A DNA stretch of 64,000 nucleotides from Candidatus Electrothrix communis (lineage in GTDB: Bacteria > Desulfobacterota > Desulfobulbia > Desulfobulbales > Desulfobulbaceae), in assembly GCA_030644725.1 (NCBI GenBank), contig CP130629.1:2991501-3055500 (forward strand), in the 5' to 3' direction. Every line of letters begins with the position of its first letter. Positions within the stretch are counted from its first letter, which is position 1. Below are positions 24,006 through 33,058 of the stretch, piece after piece. Position numbers and translations under genes: made by a program. The notes under the pieces were generated by a model that made no database searches, was not told the DNA's origin, and saw nothing but the letters and a program-made list of their open reading frames with translations.

Positions 24006-24446
24006 ATGAAGGGCATTTTAGACGACATAAAGCGTCGGGATAAGGTGTTACGGGAACTTGCCGCCGACACTCCCCTGCGTTTTCGAACACAAGGCTGTTG
24101 TATGTCTCCTCTGCTTGAAGACGGTGCTGTTGTTGAGATTACCAATAAACGCTTTTATTGGCCCGGTGATGTGTTGGTTTTCCGGCATCAGGACGGTCAC
24201 GCCCTGGTTCACCGGCTGATAGGTTACGCCCCCTGTTTTTCTGGAATTCGCTATATCACCAAGGCTGACAGGGCGTTTCAGCTTGATGCCTCTGTAGGCA
24301 GACAGCAGATTCTCGGCGTAGTAAAGGGTGGTGATGTTGCACCCGCTTTGGCGAATGTTCCGTTTGCGCATCGTGTACACTCGCTCAGTATTTTTTTTCT
24401 TTTTGTTCTGTTCCGTTTGCTGCGAAGGGTTGGCATCCGGCGCTGA
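24006..24446 (+). CDS. S24/S26-like peptidase associated with radical SAM peptide-modification cluster
   Basis: 146 residues. Peptidase S24/S26 fold: the GxSMxP-type motif appears as QGCCMSPLLEDGAVVEI, followed by FYWPGDVLVFRHQDG, ALVHRLIGY and YITKADRAF. The usual nucleophile position reads Cys rather than Ser. The C-terminus is hydrophobic (LSIFFLFVLFRLL) and may anchor the protein. Small S24/S26-like proteins of this kind often sit beside PqqD, HprK-like and radical SAM genes, as here, and are presumed to cut the leader. It converges on the radical SAM gene 70 bp away. A broken copy lies at 32690-32789. No clear ribosome site. Confidence 0.75.
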   Translation: MKGILDDIKRRDKVLRELAADTPLRFRTQGCCMSPLLEDGAVVEITNKRFYWPGDVLVFRHQDGHALVHRLIGYAPCFSGIRYITKADRAFQLDASVGRQQILGVVKGGDVAPALANVPFAHRVHSLSIFFLFVLFRLLRRVGIRR

Positions 24447-24516
24447 ATCAATGGGGGCGATATGTGAACGAATCTTCAATTAAAAGAGCAGACTTGCTCC
24501 TATTTATCAGGAAATA

Positions 24517-25533
24517 TTATCTTTTGCCGCAGTGAGCGCCACAACCTTTTATTATATTCTCTTCAACCGCAATACAGTAGAGCGGAGCACCGAATTGTCT
24601 GGGAGATGTATCAGTGAACTGTTTGGCAGCGGAGACCGCACGTTGCCGCGCCTGCTGAAAAAGCGGAGAGTGGTTCCAGATGTCTTTGATGGATTGCCGG
24701 TGCAGGTTTCCGGCGGGTTCCTGCAAATGCATGCAGGCCTGGACATTGCCGAAGGGATCAATGTCAACGCCGGAGACCCCGACGCCGCACATGGCACGTT
24801 CCTCCGGCTGTTCCTCAGAAAACAGGTCTGCTGCCTGGTCCTGAGCAGGTGAAGGCATGGCATCATGGCGACGTTGTTTCTGCAGGGCAGAGATCAGGTC
24901 CCAGGTTGCCTGGGCTGGCTGGAGGGCAAGCGGTTCGGTATCACCGTTATCACGCGGGCCTACCGGCCCCTGGAAACGTAAAGGCAGGCCGAGAGCATCG
25001 CAGAGAGCAAGCATCTCCTCTATCTGATGCTCATTCCAGGCTGTCGGCGTTGTGACGACGCTGCAGCGGAGACCGACGTCCATGGCCGTGGAAAGATTTT
25101 TGAGCAGCCGATCAAAGCTGCCCGGCACCCGAGTCTGTCGATCATGGACGTCGGCTGTGGCACCGTGCAGGCTGACTTCAATCATATAGGGAGCGACTTC
25201 TTCCCGTAATCGCGTACAATTGTCTCGGTTAAGGATGTGACCGTTTGTTCGGACTCGCACCACGAAACCCAAGTCTTGGGCCAGCTTTCCGATCTCGAAA
25301 AAATCAGGATGGAGCATGGGCTCGCCGCCGGTAAGCATCAGAAAAAGAGTCTGCATTTCCGCGAGATCCCGAAGCAGTACCCGGTATTGATCCAAGCTTA
25401 ACATGTTACCGGTCTTCAGCCGATCATTATAACAGTAATAACAGTGCAGATTGCATTGAAAGGTCAGCTCAAGCGAGACGCTGTGCAGCAGACGTCGCTC
25501 CCGAACCCGGCGGAGAATTCTATCCTTGTACAT
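24517..25533 (-). CDS. Radical SAM/SPASM peptide-modifying enzyme
   Basis: 338 residues. The S-adenosylmethionine cluster motif CNLHCYYC (C27, C31, C34) lies in the right place after a short N-terminus, followed by MLTGGEPMLHPDF. The C-terminal third has an auxiliary-cluster region: ERAMCGVGVSGVDIDPFGNVQACMHL and a final CIAVEENIIKGCGAHC, as in SPASM enzymes. Family members install thioether or C-C links, or epimerise residues, in RiPP precursors. Here it is the last gene of a minus-strand run precursor-hprK-pqqD-radical SAM, with a 19-bp gap to pqqD. The particular reaction cannot be predicted. Confidence 0.9.
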   Translation of the reverse strand: MYKDRILRRVRERRLLHSVSLELTFQCNLHCYYCYNDRLKTGNMLSLDQYRVLLRDLAEMQTLFLMLTGGEPMLHPDFFEIGKLAQDLGFVVRVRTNGHILNRDNCTRLREEVAPYMIEVSLHGATADVHDRQTRVPGSFDRLLKNLSTAMDVGLRCSVVTTPTAWNEHQIEEMLALCDALGLPLRFQGPVGPRDNGDTEPLALQPAQATWDLISALQKQRRHDAMPSPAQDQAADLFSEEQPEERAMCGVGVSGVDIDPFGNVQACMHLQEPAGNLHRQSIKDIWNHSPLFQQARQRAVSAAKQFTDTSPRQFGAPLYCIAVEENIIKGCGAHCGKR

Positions 25534-25552
25534 TGCCCTTTTTGGGTCATGA

Positions 25553-25885
25553 TCACGTTGAATATTCTATGACCTGCTCGCGGTCAAGTTCTTCCAGATA
25601 CAGTTGCAGGTCCGCCTGAACCCGGTCGGCGGAAACAGCAAATTCACGGGTAACGGCCCGGGCAAGTTCAGGTCGAGTCACGGGAGAAGCTAACTGTTGA
25701 ACAAGAAACAGGCCGACTTCATTGACAACAATGACCCGTCCGTTTTCCAGGTGGACCAGGACTCCTTCCTCACCGACAGCACGAAAACGAACTTGGGAGG
25801 TCAACCTGATCTGTTCAGCATCCAAAAGGGTTTCCATATCTTTTTTCCGATTATGACTTACAGGACTCATCACATGTGCAGTCAT
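25553..25885 (-). CDS. PqqD-family RiPP recognition element protein
   Basis: 110 residues with the PqqD fold: VRFRAVGEEGVLVHLENGRVIVVNEVGLFLVQQL, then a helical half (TRPELARAVTREFAVSADRVQADLQLYLEEL). PqqD proteins bind leader peptides and present them to a radical SAM enzyme. It starts 18 bp after the HprK-like stop and ends 19 bp before the radical SAM gene. The first 15 residues are not conserved in the family; a later ATG (residue 17) is possible. Confidence 0.88.
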   Translation of the reverse strand: MTAHVMSPVSHNRKKDMETLLDAEQIRLTSQVRFRAVGEEGVLVHLENGRVIVVNEVGLFLVQQLASPVTRPELARAVTREFAVSADRVQADLQLYLEELDREQVIEYST

Positions 25886-25903
25886 ATTTTGTTGAATAAG
25901 AAT

Positions 25904-26821
25904 TTAAACTGCCTGCAACTCTTTTTTCACGGCCGCCATAATCTCGTCAATCCTGTCGTCACGGCCAGAGACCAGACGAATGACAGAATGATGAGCAACC
26001 AGATTGATAACAGCTTCAAACAGAGAAGCCGATTCCTCGGCAACGGTATTGACAAAGGGGCAACCGGCCAGCAGGGCCGCAACCGCATCAGAATTTTTCA
26101 CCTTCTCAGTGCGTATCCCGTCGCCCTGTTCAAGCAGAATGATACCGGCCACCGGATAACTCTCCTGACCGCCCTGATGTTCCAGAGTACGACCGAACTC
26201 TCCGGTAAACGGTACTGCGTACGCACGATATCCCTCTTCCTGCGGCAGGAGCACGTTGATATCATCACTTAAGACACGGGCTCCGTGCTGATATGCCTTA
26301 CGGGTGAGGGTGGTTTTTCCTGCATTGGATCGTCCGGAAAAAATGAAGGCCAGATCGTCATATACCAAGCCCGCACTATGCAGGACAAGTCCTTTCAATG
26401 AAAGAGCCTGATGAGCGGTTAAGATTCGCAGAAAGTTCTCAATCACACTTGTCTTGGCTATATCCTGCTCATTGACAACGGATATTGAAGAGAACTTGTG
26501 GGAACAAGGTGAGATAATTTTTGCTTGAAAGTTGATTCCTGTCAGCTCAATCCCGTTACCCAATCGCACTTGCCGAGGAGCGTATTGCCCCTTCCATGAT
26601 ACTTCCTTGTGTGAGATACGAGGTTCGCGGTCTAATTGATACACATTGCATTCAATGCAATATTCACCTGTGATCGGAGATGGTGCGCAAAAAAATCTCT
26701 GATAATTACCCTGAAGTGAATGAATTTGCGCCTTGGTCAACCCATTCAATTTAATTATTACAGCTGGCAAATTAAGCAACAGAGAATGACTGCCCCAAGG
26801 GCGTTCGGCTGACACTGACAT
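25904..26821 (-). CDS. HPr kinase-like protein of RiPP cluster
   Basis: 305 residues. The C-terminal half resembles the HprK kinase core: a P-loop GRSNAGKT at 163-170, the SDD motif at 185-187 (acidic catalytic/Mg residues), and PFTGEFGR. The N-terminal half is unlike HPr kinase proper. Homologues of this sort occur in RiPP clusters, and in the paeninodin lasso cluster an HprK-like enzyme phosphorylates the precursor's C-terminal Ser. The candidate precursor encoded 7 bp upstream also ends in Ser. Start: ATG 26821, though a GTG at 26815 has better ribosome-site spacing. Confidence 0.8.
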   Translation of the reverse strand: MSVSAERPWGSHSLLLNLPAVIIKLNGLTKAQIHSLQGNYQRFFCAPSPITGEYCIECNVYQLDREPRISHKEVSWKGQYAPRQVRLGNGIELTGINFQAKIISPCSHKFSSISVVNEQDIAKTSVIENFLRILTAHQALSLKGLVLHSAGLVYDDLAFIFSGRSNAGKTTLTRKAYQHGARVLSDDINVLLPQEEGYRAYAVPFTGEFGRTLEHQGGQESYPVAGIILLEQGDGIRTEKVKNSDAVAALLAGCPFVNTVAEESASLFEAVINLVAHHSVIRLVSGRDDRIDEIMAAVKKELQAV

Positions 26822-26828
26822 CCCTTGT

Positions 26829-27038
26829 TTACGATCCTAGAGTCGAGAGGCTACAAGGAGAAGGTGCAGTTTTCCCATATCCACCAGTCCCGTCACAGGT
26901 CGCTGCCGCCGCCTCCAACAGCTCGGCACTCAGTACGCGCGGCGGAGAATAAATGCGCCGTTTCTCACTGTCTGATGTCATGCCAAGGCTCACCGGGATC
27001 CCCCTGTTATACTCGTCCAAGCCCTTTGTGTTTTTCAT
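26829..27038 (-). CDS. Candidate RiPP precursor peptide (69 aa)
   Basis: Called from sequence and context. The ATG at 27038 has AAGGA 6 nt upstream; the frame itself extends to 27134. A charged leader (residues 1-~45) includes EKRRIYSPPRVLSAELLEAA, the amphipathic type of helix that PqqD domains bind. The C-terminal ~23 residues are Gly/Ser/Thr/Pro-rich with two Cys (C48 and C62), a GGYG turn, and a terminal Ser69. It lies directly before the HprK-like gene (7-bp gap) in the same direction. Two Cys and small residues are suitable for thioether crosslinking by a radical SAM enzyme. I do not recognise a named precursor family. Confidence 0.7.
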   Translation of the reverse strand: MKNTKGLDEYNRGIPVSLGMTSDSEKRRIYSPPRVLSAELLEAAAATCDGTGGYGKTAPSPCSLSTLGS

Positions 27039-27109
27039 TCTGAATCCTTGAATAGATTTCGTCATTTCGTCACAGCCCGCAGCTACAACAACGCATTGAA
27101 CATTGAATG

Positions 27110-27141
27110 AGAAGAGGTGCCCCGAACAGGTCACCTCTTCT
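27110..27141 (-). promoter_or_regulatory. Stem-loop between C25 peptidase gene and precursor gene
   Basis: A perfect 10-bp inverted repeat (agaagaggtg / cacctcttct) with a 12-nt loop, in the 130-bp gap before the precursor. No T-run follows on the minus strand, so it may be a processing or attenuation site rather than a full terminator. Confidence 0.5.
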
Positions 27142-27168
27142 GACTTAGATTACAAAAACAATCAACCC

Positions 27169-29610
27169 CTAATAACCTACTTTCACAGCCGGATCACCGA
27201 TGACAGAGTACATTCGCAGCATGAACGGTGACAACCGGTCGCCGGTCTGTATCTTTGCCTGTCGCACCGCCTCCCCGATACTGTTCAATTGACCAAACAG
27301 GTTGTCAACAAAAGCAGTACCTAATATCTCGGCCTCACTATCAAGCGACAGACCCGAGGGAGCCATGGAAGCGATTGCGCCGCCACTCGGATTCAACAAC
27401 AGCGAACCGGCCAGGGAGCGTGTACCTGGAACTGTGAAGTCCCCGACAGCACAGCTTAGGGCGGTGAAGATGGGAAATACACTATTGTTCAGGGCGTCCG
27501 CATCTTTGGTTGTGATATATCGCTCTTTATAATTACCGACTTGAGCAACAGAACCGTGTCCGTAATAGTTCACGTATCCGGTTTCCCAGGTATCGGACAG
27601 AATCATGGTCTCGCGAACCGTATTATCAGGCTGATAGAGCCTGGTGATTTCTGAAAAATCCAAATCGGTAAGCAACCGGTCGGCAAGCAGGTCGGAGTTG
27701 TAATGGAAATCTCCCGCTTGGTCGGGATTATCCGCAAACAGAACCGCCTGTTCAGGAGCATTGCCAGCCAACGACGCCTTATGCGCGATCAGTTTATCCA
27801 CATAGGCGATTCCTTCACTGTCATTGGTTATCGGAATCCTGCCGACAGCAAATGATCTGTTTTCTTCAGCACCGAGCAGGCGTTCATCAGATGCGGTCAG
27901 GGCCCAGGGGGTGGCGGTCATGAGCACCGGCACAAAGCTGTCGCTGTAGCCCATGCGATTTTTCTCATCCAGTGATCCTTTGCCGAGCAACACGACGTTT
28001 GCCGGGGATACCCGCCAGTGTGCAACCTGCTCCATAAAACGACCGACAGCATGGGGATCAACACGTCCGTAACTGAATTCGTTATAGATATCATCAAGCC
28101 AGACGACCTTGACGTCATTAAAATACGTCCTGTGAAATTCGGCCAGAGCCTCTGCCGTGCCGGAAAAATCACGAGGCGCAATGATCAGATACTCAGCCCT
28201 GTTGGCTTTATTTTCAAGGTCAGAAGCGTTATCCGCTGTTATCAGCGGGGTATGAATACTGTCCTGCGTCACAACGAGATAATTCTGTCCTGTCTCGGCG
28301 TTAAAACTCACAGTCCATTGACCGTTTTCATCTGCCTCGACCTTAACATTGTCAAGTATTGCCGCTGAATCCGCCGGAGATTCAATGACCAGAATATTCT
28401 CATCAGACAGACCGGAGACCGTCTGTGCGCCCCCTTCGACATTATGCAGCCAAAGGGCGTCATTCACCGCCACCGGCATCCGGGAGTAGTCGATTTCAAT
28501 CTGGTCCAGCCATTGGCCGGGATGTGATCCGGGAGTATAACTGTTGCGTAAAACCAGAGTGTTATTTCCGTCCTCATTGAGGAGGCTTTGGTCAAATTGC
28601 GCTGCCAGCTCCGCTTCGGTAAAGCCGTCCCAGATGACCATCGTGCCGATGGAGTGCCCGTTGAGTTCGGCATATACCCGGTGTTCGTCGTTTGCATCCA
28701 GATCGGTCCAGCCCCGTAAGGTAACTCGAAGATGGGCTGTGCCGGTTTGTGCCGGGTCGGGAACAGTTAGCGATACATCAATGCTGTCTTTGTAGCCGCC
28801 GTACAGATAATCCCAGAACCAGTAATCCGCATCCTGTTCAGCCGCCACTGTCCAGGTTGAATACAGGAGATCAGGTTCTTCTTCAAAATGCAGCGAATCC
28901 ATAAAAGGAGCATGATTGACTGAAGCGCCGGACGGACGACCGTCGATAACCGGCATGCTTTTGGTCCGAGTGCGTCCGAGTTGAAAATAATAGGCGTTCT
29001 GATCGGTGTAAAAGGTTTCATATCGCTCGCCAGCAAACAGGACGGAATTCGTCGACCGGTCATAGTGCCAGGACACGGGCTTTCCTCCGTTGCTCATGGC
29101 AAGTTGGCCGCGCTGAATATTTTTTTGAATTTTCCGTGTCGATTGACCAAGGATGTCAGAGAGTTCGTCCACGGAAACAGCATACAGACCGGCCATACCG
29201 GTACGCAACCACAGGCCGTTCTGTGTATCCCGCTGTTCCCTGAGCAATGCTCTATCGCTTTTTTTCTTCAGTTGATCGACTCGACCTTCCAGCTTGGCAA
29301 GCCGCCGCTCCAAGGCTGCTTTTTTCTTCGAAGTCAGGTTGGTGCTTGCAATGCGATCCCGCAGCTGTTCCAGCTTGAGCAGGCGTTCCTGGACTTTTTC
29401 CTGTCCGCGTTCATCGACCTGCTTATCAAGCTTGGGCGGTACGCGACGTTGGGCGACAAAGCCCCTGTCCAATGCTTTCCAGTCGCTCCACTCCTTGTCT
29501 TTATTCGTCTGTTCAGCCGACACCGGTGCGGCAGCGAGCATGAACAGGCTCATCAGCATTGCTCCCGACAGCCTGACCATTGAGCGTTTTATATTTTGTT
29601 GTCCAATCAT
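27169..29610 (-). CDS. C25 (gingipain-like) cysteine peptidase, secreted
   Basis: 813 residues from the ATG at 29610 (AGGTG upstream); a longer frame to 29658 lacks a signal logic. A signal peptide ends near APVSA. An N-terminal helical/coiled-coil part (residues ~45-125: LLKLEQLRDRIASTNLT, KKKSDRALLREQ) is followed by a beta-rich domain (~180-420). The peptidase domain (~450-805) contains the clan CD dyad: H685 in NYYGHGS and C720 in TALSCAVGD. C25 enzymes cut after Arg or Lys in exported proteins; specificity here is unknown. It sits between the discoidin protein gene and the RiPP genes, same strand. Confidence 0.85.
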   Translation of the reverse strand: MIGQQNIKRSMVRLSGAMLMSLFMLAAAPVSAEQTNKDKEWSDWKALDRGFVAQRRVPPKLDKQVDERGQEKVQERLLKLEQLRDRIASTNLTSKKKAALERRLAKLEGRVDQLKKKSDRALLREQRDTQNGLWLRTGMAGLYAVSVDELSDILGQSTRKIQKNIQRGQLAMSNGGKPVSWHYDRSTNSVLFAGERYETFYTDQNAYYFQLGRTRTKSMPVIDGRPSGASVNHAPFMDSLHFEEEPDLLYSTWTVAAEQDADYWFWDYLYGGYKDSIDVSLTVPDPAQTGTAHLRVTLRGWTDLDANDEHRVYAELNGHSIGTMVIWDGFTEAELAAQFDQSLLNEDGNNTLVLRNSYTPGSHPGQWLDQIEIDYSRMPVAVNDALWLHNVEGGAQTVSGLSDENILVIESPADSAAILDNVKVEADENGQWTVSFNAETGQNYLVVTQDSIHTPLITADNASDLENKANRAEYLIIAPRDFSGTAEALAEFHRTYFNDVKVVWLDDIYNEFSYGRVDPHAVGRFMEQVAHWRVSPANVVLLGKGSLDEKNRMGYSDSFVPVLMTATPWALTASDERLLGAEENRSFAVGRIPITNDSEGIAYVDKLIAHKASLAGNAPEQAVLFADNPDQAGDFHYNSDLLADRLLTDLDFSEITRLYQPDNTVRETMILSDTWETGYVNYYGHGSVAQVGNYKERYITTKDADALNNSVFPIFTALSCAVGDFTVPGTRSLAGSLLLNPSGGAIASMAPSGLSLDSEAEILGTAFVDNLFGQLNSIGEAVRQAKIQTGDRLSPFMLRMYSVIGDPAVKVGY

Positions 29611-29680
29611 ATCATCACCTGTATCAAAAAAATTATGATCAAAAGACAGGATCCGCATTCCTGCAGGCGTCCGACAAGTA

Positions 29681-32419
29681 TCAGGGCATCTTCAGGGTAA
29701 AGGGACCGTAGCTGCGGGTTGTCCCGGCAGCCTCCTGCTCGATCAAATGATACTGATACACTCCTCCGGAACGGGCTTCCGGGTCGGCCAGCATATATCG
29801 GCCTCCCATGGGAGCTGTTATCAAACCGGGCAGCATATCGTCATTGACCTGAATCCAGTCGTCCTTTGCCTCTTCTCGGCGATGCACGTAAAAACCTATG
29901 GTGCCGCGCTCCTCCAGGGTGTCCCAGCGTAACACCGCCACCTGACCGTCATTGTCAGGATCCAGGGAAGCCCGGAGATGCGCGATCAGCGAGGCATTAT
30001 CGTCGGACTCGCTGACCGGTCGGTTCGGTGCCAAGGCCTGTATCAGGGCCAGGAGTTCAGCACGCCCCAAGCGATGGACGCCCAGCTCGTTCAGATAGTC
30101 CTGAACGGCCTGTGCCTCCATTTCAAAGCCGCCAAGAGTCACGGCAGTAGGAGCGAAGTCGAAAGCAACGAGATAATCTTCAACTTCACCGTTTGCAGCA
30201 AATCCAACGGGATCTTCGCATTCACTTTGGGTTGAACACACCCGGAAGCGAAGGTAGGTATCACCGGATACAGCAGGTAAGCCGCTCCAGCTAAAGGTGA
30301 CAGGGGTAGTTCCGCCGCTATTATCCACCACTGTCTGGCAGACCTGAGCTGGCGAGGTTGCGATGTCTCCGGCATTGAAAGTACCGTCCAGTGTAGCCGT
30401 GCCTCCGCCACCATCGGTCCAGCGATCCAACCAGGCGCAGACATAGGCATCTGCCCCTGTATCGTTGACGACCTGAGCATCGGCATAAACCCCTCCGCCA
30501 GCGGCTGAGTAGAAGGTGACGCCGTCATCATCATCGGTTCCATTCGTATCGTCAGCAGCAGCATCGACTGAGGGCTGGCCGTCGATGTCGACTTCTGTAT
30601 TCGCCGCTCCTAAACGCAGTGTCTCACTGGTGACATGGTAAGGTCCACTGTTCGCATGCAGGGTACCGTAGGTATCAGGCAGATCGCCGTAATCGACTGC
30701 TCCGCAGGTTGGGTCTGCATACGTCTGCATCAAAAAACCAATATTCGGATTGCCGGATTTTACATGCACAACAATCGAATTATCACCAGGAACGAGGTAC
30801 GAGCTGGGGACATTGAGATCAAAATGGTTTCCTTCGACATAACCAAGATAGAGATACACGTTGTTACGCGAGGTATCAGCACCAGAGGTGGGCAGGTTGG
30901 GATCACCTGCCTGCAGGCTGTTCCCGTTGACGACCACGTCCCAGACCGTGTTGTCGGCGAACAGACCTAAATGCAGTGGCGAGAGAATACCGACCAGATT
31001 CGGATCGGTGACATCAATGTTGAAATCCAGCCGAAAAAGATAATCAATATCATCTGCCGGGTTGTCGCCCCCAGTGTTGGAATCATGCTTTCCATCAAAA
31101 CTTTGCGTAATCCACTCGGCATTTCCATAGGGAGAATCGTACCAGTTGCCGAAGCCGCTGCCCGCTACGTTCCCGGTAACATCACCCGAGACCACCGCCC
31201 GTTGCCAGTTGTTAACATTAGCCAGGGCCGCAGCCGTATCAGTGGTGTATTGGGGGATGCGTGTAACCAGCCAGCGTTCGTCGTATTGCTTCAGGTTGTA
31301 ATCGACCATCCCGCCATCTGATTGGCGGTACCCGCTGTTGAGCTCGTACTGCGGGCAGGTGCCCGGTGCAAAGACCGGGGTGGTCGGGGCGGGGTCCGAG
31401 GCGGCGCAGACCATCGGGTTCACTTCCGGGATACCGGCATAGAGGTTTAGATGCCCAGAAGTAGCAACGAAACGGTAATAACGGGCAGGCACCTCTGCCG
31501 GAAACTCGATGAAAAAAGCCTCGTAATTATTAGCTGTAGGTATCGGCAGGTTGCCTGTAGTCTGCAAATTATATATGGCGCCGTCGGTACTGGTCCAGAC
31601 CTCATAGCCGTTGATCCGTGCCTCTGCGTAATCGATGGGAAATATCTGTATCCCCCCGAGATCCCTGGTCACACCCATATCCACAGTGAGGTATTGCGGC
31701 CAAGCAGTGGGAGCCAACGCATGCCAATACGTAGGAAGCTTATTATCGATTGCCATTGCTGGAGCACGAGGAGCATCGTGAAAGCTGGTTGCGGTGGCGA
31801 TCCAGGTGCCCGGATTGGGCAGGGCAATCAGATCCTCACCACTCCCACAGGGCGGGGTTCCAAAAATCTGAACCTCAGCCAATGAGAGAATGCGGTCCGT
31901 CCCGACCAACCGAATCCTTATCGTTTGACCTACCAGATCAGACGGAAGGTTCGGTATCATCGTTTTGCCCCCTGGAGTTCCGATGTGCGTATAGGTGTGC
32001 ACCACACTGTTGCCAGCATCAAGCACCTCAAGGATGAAGTCAGCGAGGCGCTCCGGGGCATCATCAGTCCGGTTCCAGACGATGATGCTTTCAATTTCCT
32101 GCACCGAACCCAGATCGACCTCCCACCAGGGATCGTTCTGCGTCAGGGTATGCGTCACAGATCCGCTGAAGAGATTTCCGTTGGTGTTGCCATCGATCGC
32201 CAGATCTGCGGACCATGGTGGGTAGGATGGATCATCGTAAGTTGAACTCTGGGTGGCGGTTCCCGTGAGCGCCAGATTGGCAGCAAGCGCGGTCTGTCCG
32301 ACGAAGAGTATCAACCAAAGCAGGGGAGTTATCACCAAAAAGTTTTTTATCTCAACTCTCCCAGGTATTAATTTTGTTATTAATCCGAATCGTATACCTG
32401 TGTGAACTAAAAATTTCAT
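29681..32419 (-). CDS. Secreted discoidin/GEVED-domain protein
   Basis: 912 residues from the ATG at 32419, preceded by GAGGAGG at 8 nt; an upstream ATG at 32500 is less good. Signal peptide cleavage is predicted around GQTALAANLA. Two F5/8 type C (discoidin) domains are seen near ~50-190 (ATQSSTYDD, DPWWEVDLGSV) and ~200-345. A jelly-roll-like central region and a GEVED domain (~570-750; YGDLPDTYGTL and DTNGTDDDDGVTF, ending NGEVEDYLV) follow. The C-terminus has a short EF-like DPDNDGQV and a fibronectin-like tail ending TLKMP. Domains imply binding to glycans or the cell surface. First gene of the presumed minus-strand operon, 70 bp upstream of the C25 gene. Confidence 0.8.
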   Translation of the reverse strand: MKFLVHTGIRFGLITKLIPGRVEIKNFLVITPLLWLILFVGQTALAANLALTGTATQSSTYDDPSYPPWSADLAIDGNTNGNLFSGSVTHTLTQNDPWWEVDLGSVQEIESIIVWNRTDDAPERLADFILEVLDAGNSVVHTYTHIGTPGGKTMIPNLPSDLVGQTIRIRLVGTDRILSLAEVQIFGTPPCGSGEDLIALPNPGTWIATATSFHDAPRAPAMAIDNKLPTYWHALAPTAWPQYLTVDMGVTRDLGGIQIFPIDYAEARINGYEVWTSTDGAIYNLQTTGNLPIPTANNYEAFFIEFPAEVPARYYRFVATSGHLNLYAGIPEVNPMVCAASDPAPTTPVFAPGTCPQYELNSGYRQSDGGMVDYNLKQYDERWLVTRIPQYTTDTAAALANVNNWQRAVVSGDVTGNVAGSGFGNWYDSPYGNAEWITQSFDGKHDSNTGGDNPADDIDYLFRLDFNIDVTDPNLVGILSPLHLGLFADNTVWDVVVNGNSLQAGDPNLPTSGADTSRNNVYLYLGYVEGNHFDLNVPSSYLVPGDNSIVVHVKSGNPNIGFLMQTYADPTCGAVDYGDLPDTYGTLHANSGPYHVTSETLRLGAANTEVDIDGQPSVDAAADDTNGTDDDDGVTFYSAAGGGVYADAQVVNDTGADAYVCAWLDRWTDGGGGTATLDGTFNAGDIATSPAQVCQTVVDNSGGTTPVTFSWSGLPAVSGDTYLRFRVCSTQSECEDPVGFAANGEVEDYLVAFDFAPTAVTLGGFEMEAQAVQDYLNELGVHRLGRAELLALIQALAPNRPVSESDDNASLIAHLRASLDPDNDGQVAVLRWDTLEERGTIGFYVHRREEAKDDWIQVNDDMLPGLITAPMGGRYMLADPEARSGGVYQYHLIEQEAAGTTRSYGPFTLKMP

Positions 32420-33058
32420 CGGACCGGCCTCCTCTTGTACCTGATTTATAGATTGAATACTCGACCCGCAAAAAGAATCTATATTGAACTGTTCCTTCAT
32501 ATTAAACCTACAACAACTCTATTAACAAAACAAGAAGTAAGCAGGGCGACATTGCCGTTTTTACTTAAACAAAACAGTATAATAAGTTGCACGCAGGGGT
32601 GCGGATCTCCTTTTTTCCTTCTGCAAGAAGAAAAAAAAATACAATAGGAGCGTGATGGTTTTGTAAAAAGTTCAATTTTTTGAATTCACGCGTCGGGACA
32701 AGGTGCTGCGGGAACTTGCCGCTCAAGCCCCGTTGCGTTTTCGAATACAGGGCGGTTGCACGTCTCCCCTGTTTGAAGACGTGCCGTAGCGCTGAGTCTC
32801 TTAATTTGAGCTCAAAAACGTTAATTTTGTAACTATTTGATTTCTTATGTACAAGTCATGCGTATGCCGTGGGGCTACAAGGAACAGGATGGGAAAGTCC
32901 ACCGATTAGAGAAGAAAAACGAAGAAAGATTTATTTTTATCGTTTAAAAACGAAATATTTTATGTATAAAATATGAAATATTGTATCAGGAAAAACCTGA
33001 GAAATATTTTTGGGCGGAGTAAAAAAGAGAGAAGAATACAAAAAGGAGGGGATTGATT
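32420..33058. other. Intergenic region between divergent discoidin and porin genes
   Basis: About 640 bp. It contains the peptidase remnant at 32690-32789. Otherwise it is AT-rich leader DNA with a small stem-loop around 32983-32999 (tcagg aaaaa cctga). A 29-codon frame at 32858 (MRMPWGYKEQDGKVHRL) has no ribosome site. No clear promoter can be fixed. Confidence 0.5.
32690..32789 (+). pseudogene. Broken second copy of the S24/S26-like peptidase gene
   Basis: The DNA reads RRDKVLRELAAQAPLRFR, then IQGGCTSPLFED, closely matching residues 10-39 of the protein at 24006 (RRDKVLRELAADTPLRFR, TQGCCMSPLLED). Just after GAAGACG a G is missing relative to the intact gene, which throws the frame into TAG at 32787. 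The homology starts and stops abruptly, with no start codon. The C-terminal two thirds are absent. Confidence 0.85.

Follow-up and report, generated by a model that had tools for sequence, protein, structure and literature searches.

Lasso peptides made with an HprK-like kinase (paeninodin PadeK, ThcoK, SyanK type), the SynChlorMet cassette, and the sactipeptides and ranthipeptides are the described systems closest to a cluster of seven genes that we analysed in a 64,000-nucleotide stretch of Candidatus Electrothrix communis (contig CP130629.1, positions 2,991,501 to 3,055,500; this whole stretch is called the window below). Kinases of the lasso type carry the motif H148-G163-G166-G168-K169-S170-D186-D187 (PMC10368454) and act on precursors that have little in common beyond a C-terminal Ser, which is the residue phosphorylated (PMC8498205). 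The window cluster resembles them in its PqqD-like recognition element for ribosomally synthesized and post-translationally modified peptides (RiPPs), in a Y..P leader motif, in an HprK-like kinase with the H, P-loop and DD motif and in a precursor ending in Ser (PMC8498205, PMC10368454). Unlike the lasso type, it has a radical SAM/SPASM enzyme, a core with two cysteines and a paired C25 peptidase. On balance, we favour a new radical SAM RiPP cassette, the product of which would be crosslinked, phosphorylated at its C-terminus and dedicated to a surface C25 protease as its partner.

A hidden Markov model (HMM) scan of the eight cluster proteins gave no match to the lasso B2 transglutaminase-like leader peptidase or to the asparagine-synthetase-like C macrolactam synthetase. 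Inspection of the other open reading frames (ORFs) between 20 and 37 kb, which were not HMM-scanned, revealed no B2 or cyclase look-alike. The SynChlorMet cassette (NCBIfam ScmC-ScmF) also places an HprK-like protein (ScmC), a PqqD-like protein (ScmD) and SPASM radical SAM proteins together, and distant relatives of it were among the loci we fetched (L082-L086); it differs in that no C25 was seen in the Scm-like loci. Membership of the Scm families was rejected, the window proteins scoring 27.8 against a cut-off of 125 for ScmC, 13.6 against 100 for ScmD, 79.8 against 400 for ScmF and 67.7 against 400 for ScmE; the kinase was likewise under the cut-off for HprK_rel_A/B. Sactipeptide and ranthipeptide maturation (SkfB, PapB type) has in common with the window a RiPP recognition element (RRE) and a SPASM radical SAM enzyme for Cys-containing cores. 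The kinase, the C-terminal Ser and the C25 pairing set the window system apart from it, and a thioether is here only predicted from the conserved Cys pair. No NCBIfam model for an HprK-related kinase, PqqD or radical SAM protein was above cut-off for the window proteins, and among the open-access papers searched, none brings radical SAM and PqqD together with an HPr kinase, or C25 together with radical SAM, most subscription journals being outside that scope. Within these searches, the original prediction that no described system has this set stood. The types of chemistry are known; their combination appears to be new. As a separate observation, one Competibacter maturase locus (L066, about 0.1-8.1 kb) lies beside what looks on inspection like a lasso-type cluster, with asparagine-synthetase-like, PqqD, HprK-like and ABC transporter genes.

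All seven genes were confirmed at 24.0-32.5 kb of the window, six on the minus strand and one, for an S26-like membrane peptidase, convergent. In order of transcription, the six encode a discoidin/GEVED protein, a C25 peptidase, a peptide, an HprK-like kinase, a PqqD-like RRE and a radical SAM enzyme, with gaps of 22, 130, 7, 18 and 19 bp; an ORF and Pfam check bore out the predicted arrangement of six minus-strand genes 7-130 bp apart with a convergent S24/S26-like gene. The radical SAM/SPASM peptide maturase (24517-25533, minus strand; Pfam Radical_SAM 1.3e-20, SPASM 5e-7) has a CxxxCxxC motif (C27, C31, C34) that, with C249, C267 and C320, is invariant in 18 relatives; its PDB matches are PqqE, SkfB and 5wgg. 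The RRE (25553-25885, minus strand) matches Pfam PqqD at 7e-12. In the HprK-like kinase (25904-26821, minus strand), H148, G163, G168 and K169 of the H/GxxxxGK/DD motif are invariant, as are D186/D187 in the four closest relatives, and an AlphaFold2 model (predicted local distance difference test score 88) matches the phosphoenolpyruvate carboxykinase/HPr kinase fold. A precursor beside a radical SAM enzyme and an RRE, together with the CxxxCxxC and SPASM/twitch cysteines, is what is found in RRE-dependent radical SAM RiPP systems. These genes are very probably a RiPP maturation cassette.

The precursor (26829-27038, minus strand; 69 residues) starts at the ATG at 27038, behind an AAGGA ribosome-binding site, and not at the longer listed ORF start. 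It reads MKNTKGLDEYNRGIPVSLGMTSDSEKRRIYSPPRVLSAELLEAAAAT-CDGTGGYGKTAPSPCSLSTLGS, where the leader ends ...RRIYSPPRVLSAELLEAAAAT and CDGTGGYGKTAPSPCSLSTLGS is the core. The ORF is a real gene, as the sister strain and distant phyla have it beside the same neighbours. Its leader carries the motif [KR]x[YW]xxP...E.LEaxA, and its core has two cysteines and a C-terminal serine; a lysine between the cysteines is usual in the family. We used an HMM of leaders cut before the first core cysteine, which is blind to the C-terminus, and accepted matches near these genes with E below 0.1. This gave 67 precursors beside maturases, 65 of which end in Ser (one ends in Thr and one in Ala); as background, Ser is the last residue in 11% of the small ORFs at these loci. 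Two or three cysteines are present in every core typed, with Lys between the first two in 47/50 A-type and 11/18 B-type cores. Because this serine signature occurs together with the kinase motif, as in the lasso relatives, the HprK-like kinase probably phosphorylates the C-terminal Ser of the peptide.

To assess conservation, loci were fetched with the radical SAM profile alone, which is blind to the other genes, from named genomes and Acidobacteriota. A locus was taken as close if its radical SAM belonged to clade A and its flanks extended 5 kb or more in both directions (n = 39), and we counted neighbours within 5 kb. PqqD was present in 38, C25 in 31, HprK in 29, the peptide in 29 and S26 in 14. 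Among 11 more distant loci, which were chosen partly by HprK, the counts were 11 for PqqD, 9 for C25, 11 for HprK, 11 for S26 and 9 for the peptide. A radical SAM relative was found in 60 of 347 sampled Acidobacteriota genomes (E 1e-60). The set recurs, in some loci incompletely, in Desulfobulbus relatives, Halioglobus, Sedimenticola, Competibacter, Lysobacterales, Thermoanaerobaculia and many Acidobacteriota. Desulfobulbia, Acidobacteriota and Gammaproteobacteria are all represented, i.e. at least three phyla, and the nearest named genome is that of Candidatus Electrothrix marina A5 (the sister strain, locus L056). These counts support the view that radical SAM, PqqD and HprK form a conserved RiPP set to which a precursor and a C25 protease belong. 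The original prediction would have fallen had the small ORF not been conserved beside these genes, or had C25 been missing from most clusters; neither was the case. The gene set is widespread and apparently undescribed. Phosphodiesterase-like membrane proteins and sulfatase-TPR proteins are frequent neighbours of the set in one Acidobacteriota branch (L243, L245, L247, L249, L250, L254-L256, L260, L261), some members of which have no adjacent HprK.

The HprK-like kinase and C25 were also traced separately across the organism's own class (Desulfobulbia). C25 was present in 17 of 27 genomes with HprK relatives versus 17 of 231 without (Fisher 6e-11, uncorrected for relatedness), and in 15 genomes an HprK relative and C25 lay within 6 kb of each other. 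C25 was held by 20 of the 21 genomes behind the first loci, usually elsewhere in the genome where it was not adjacent. In a quick radical SAM tree, C25 neighbourhoods fall in two deep clades.

The peptidase itself (27169-29658, minus strand) is an exported, gingipain/PorU-like C25 protein (Pfam C25 3.5e-57) whose His701/Cys736 dyad is invariant in 14/14 aligned members. A PDB search with the single sequence gave nothing; a profile search gave PorU, RgpB and Kgp, with PorU as the best structural match. PorU and the gingipains RgpB and Kgp are alike in the catalytic fold and the His/Cys dyad. The window C25 differs from them in its attached RiPP cassette and in having its front half split off. 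The latter concerns the exported discoidin/GEVED protein (29681-32419, minus strand; two F5/F8-type C domains and GEVED in Pfam), the ORF of which stays open to 32500. With 31-42% identity, its C-terminal third (residues 597-939 at the widest) can be aligned to the stretch that directly precedes the C25 unit in single-chain relatives, and to a separate discoidin-like protein in L149. In L057, a 1312-residue protein that scores for both GEVED and C25 matches the discoidin protein at residues 232-530 and C25 at residues 610-1300. Where discoidin-like genes were found as separate genes, the C25 protein of the locus is compact, about 780-830 residues long. Judged by its alignment to the pre-C25 part of the fused relatives, the discoidin gene is the split-off N-terminal half of one large exported C25 surface protein, and the idea that it encodes an independent component was not borne out. 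Against the sister strain, the front part of this gene (30710-32419) has gaps and some 120 substitutions per kb; the C25 gene has 16 per kb.

The link between the peptide and C25 is close. Of the 48 loci with both genes, 47 have them in the same orientation, and in 32 they overlap or lie within 100 bp. The pair stays joined where the maturases are on the opposite strand or on a separate contig, as in the Competibacter locus L146, in which it stands apart from the maturases. No peptide-C25 gene fusion was found. Two loci carry several C25-peptide pairs on one maturase set each (three in L148, two in L230), the peptides being almost identical. One C25 per near-identical peptide fits a partner, as one processing protease would suffice.

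Comparison with the sister strain A5 is in keeping with this, if suggestive only. The leader DNA is identical (63/63 nt) and PqqD is unchanged; in the core 55 of 66 aligned bases are identical and there is a one-codon indel. C25 has 36 changed codons, of which 12 fall at codons 639-659, which align to the S1 loop of RgpB carrying the S1 residue D163; three further changed codons directly follow the catalytic Cys736. In other strain pairs, such clustering of changes near the C25 active site is weak. In Acidobacteriota, L235 and L237 have a common peptide core and C25 catalytic domain, and the radical SAM is closer between L236 and L237, a pattern that looks, again no more than suggestively, like joint inheritance of the peptide and its C25. 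Taken with the gene pairing, it is reasonably likely that C25 is the direct partner of the peptide. Staphopains offer a parallel: there, a small protein without a signal peptide, staphostatin, is encoded directly beside an exported cysteine protease. The window has a similar small signal-less protein gene adjoining an exported cysteine protease; unlike staphostatin, this small protein is the precursor of a RiPP and has maturases of its own, and an inhibitory role for it is putative.

We therefore consider the following pathway. The PqqD-like RRE would read the leader motif of the precursor, and the radical SAM/SPASM enzyme would modify the core, most likely with a crosslink of the thioether type at cysteine. 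The HprK-like kinase would then phosphorylate the C-terminal serine, as its motif and the serine signature suggest, and the S26-like peptidase might remove the leader, a role that is a guess. The product would be made for the adjacent exported C25, as a dedicated active-site ligand or an inhibitor (guard), and not as a free antibiotic. That the peptide guards or inhibits C25 rather than serving as its substrate has a little less than an even chance in our estimation. Taken whole, with a RiPP pathway in at least three phyla making a crosslinked C-terminal-phosphoserine peptide as the active-site partner of a gingipain-like surface protease, and with a Cys-for-Ser S26-like peptidase, the scheme is rather doubtful.

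Several observations weigh against a C-terminally phosphorylated partner of C25. BsfK, a lasso kinase of the HprK-like superfamily, phosphorylates an internal residue, Ser3 (PMC10368454), and a C-terminal site is therefore likely, not certain. In 10 of the 39 close loci there is no HprK within 5 kb and the C-terminal Ser is kept nonetheless; the checked genomes of such loci all hold HprK-like genes elsewhere, whose relation is putative. The hot spot in C25 comprises 8 synonymous and 4 non-synonymous codons, so that selection accounts for it no better than a short tract of recombination, and we rejected it as proof of selection. The core is nearly constant across many Acidobacteriota, and the peptide was not found in some C25-bearing loci (L246-L249, L253). 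Neighbour clustering of 78 loci showed neither an exporter nor an immunity gene to be consistently linked, ABC-type proteins occurring in only four.

If a dedicated C25 partner is nevertheless what the cassette makes, C-terminal Ser phosphorylation, known from lasso peptides, would belong to a second, much wider RiPP type. This would be a non-lasso use of that modification, in a RiPP made for one protease. A modified peptide would be tied to a gingipain/PorU-type protease, with protease control instead of killing as its purpose, which is directly testable. It would also give a first lead on C25 proteins in both cable bacteria and Acidobacteriota, and the two-cysteine/C-terminal-serine signature could be used to mine more precursors.

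Alternatively, C25 may be a maturation protease that cuts or trims the exported modified precursor outside the cell and releases a free secreted peptide. In favour of this are the export of C25 and its pairing with the peptide, the frequent presence of proteases in RiPP clusters and, in Electrothrix, a variable core behind a constant leader. Against this, the lack of a consistently linked exporter applies here too, and no Sec signal is evident on the peptide by inspection. One C25 for each near-identical peptide in L148 and L230 also argues against a processing enzyme only. In the C25 alignments, the acidic S1 residues of RgpB (D163) and Kgp (D516) have no conserved counterparts, and the conserved Lys is therefore not a predicted cleavage site. 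Lys-specific cleavage of the core was rejected on the same ground, and B-type cores are often without Lys. Processing outside the cell, as the original prediction had it, is accordingly not supported, and we regard a maturation protease as unlikely.

Attachment of the peptide to C25 or another surface protein, or its use as an anchor, by a sortase-like reaction is less probable still. PorU, the best structural match, is a transpeptidase, and the C25 proteins have a giant surface architecture with DUF11/GEVED parts. The NCBIfam PorU equivalog was reached only to half its cut-off (210 of 420 bits), and there is no export route for the peptide. The type IX secretion marker SprA had no match in ten genomes, in a search without a positive control; we dropped a type IX secretion sortase as a candidate, though controls also gave nothing. 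Finally, radical SAM RiPPs are often antimicrobial and cores diversify in Electrothrix pairs, yet a bacteriocin or signalling RiPP with C25 as an incidental neighbour is very improbable, given that C25 is a neighbour in 31/39 loci and in two deep branches of the radical SAM tree, that Acidobacteriota show hardly any variation in cores such as CNPPAKSSPATCSSGPISS and that immunity and exporter genes are not consistently linked.

The S26-like gene (24006-24446, plus strand) shows weak matches to NCBIfam archaeal SPase I/SipW-type models and was placed by alignment. The nucleophile of signal peptidases is the residue that precedes Met in the GxSMxP box. The window protein has Cys in place of Ser there (GCCMSP), with the following His kept. 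Cys occupies this position in 15 of 18 readable clade A members, and Ser in 17/17 readable others (B, Scm-like). A remnant of a second S26-like gene lies upstream of the discoidin gene (32691-32790, plus strand) and has a 32-base pattern in common with 24033-24064. Because A5 carries an intact S26 gene at the matching position (L056 11347-11790), the window strain seems, from this comparison, to have undergone a duplication or relocation of the gene.

The genome also holds a second, divergent set (L060 110-8426, equal to C1:3893110-3901426). It comprises a C25 protein with DUF11/DUF7933 repeats, PqqD, radical SAM, a peptide ending CGKLTTDPVPEGGCGLAISSS, HprK and an S26 with the normal Ser; this B type is present in most sampled Electrothrix genomes. 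Two precursor genes with different cores per cluster were seen in L183 (9227-9651), L187, L188, L250 and L252. In Electrothrix B-type clusters (L180 7724-8350, L181, L182, L183, L184), an exported protein of about 210 residues lies between HprK and S26 (no Pfam match in the one scanned), and beyond it there is often an exported carboxypeptidase-regulatory-like protein.

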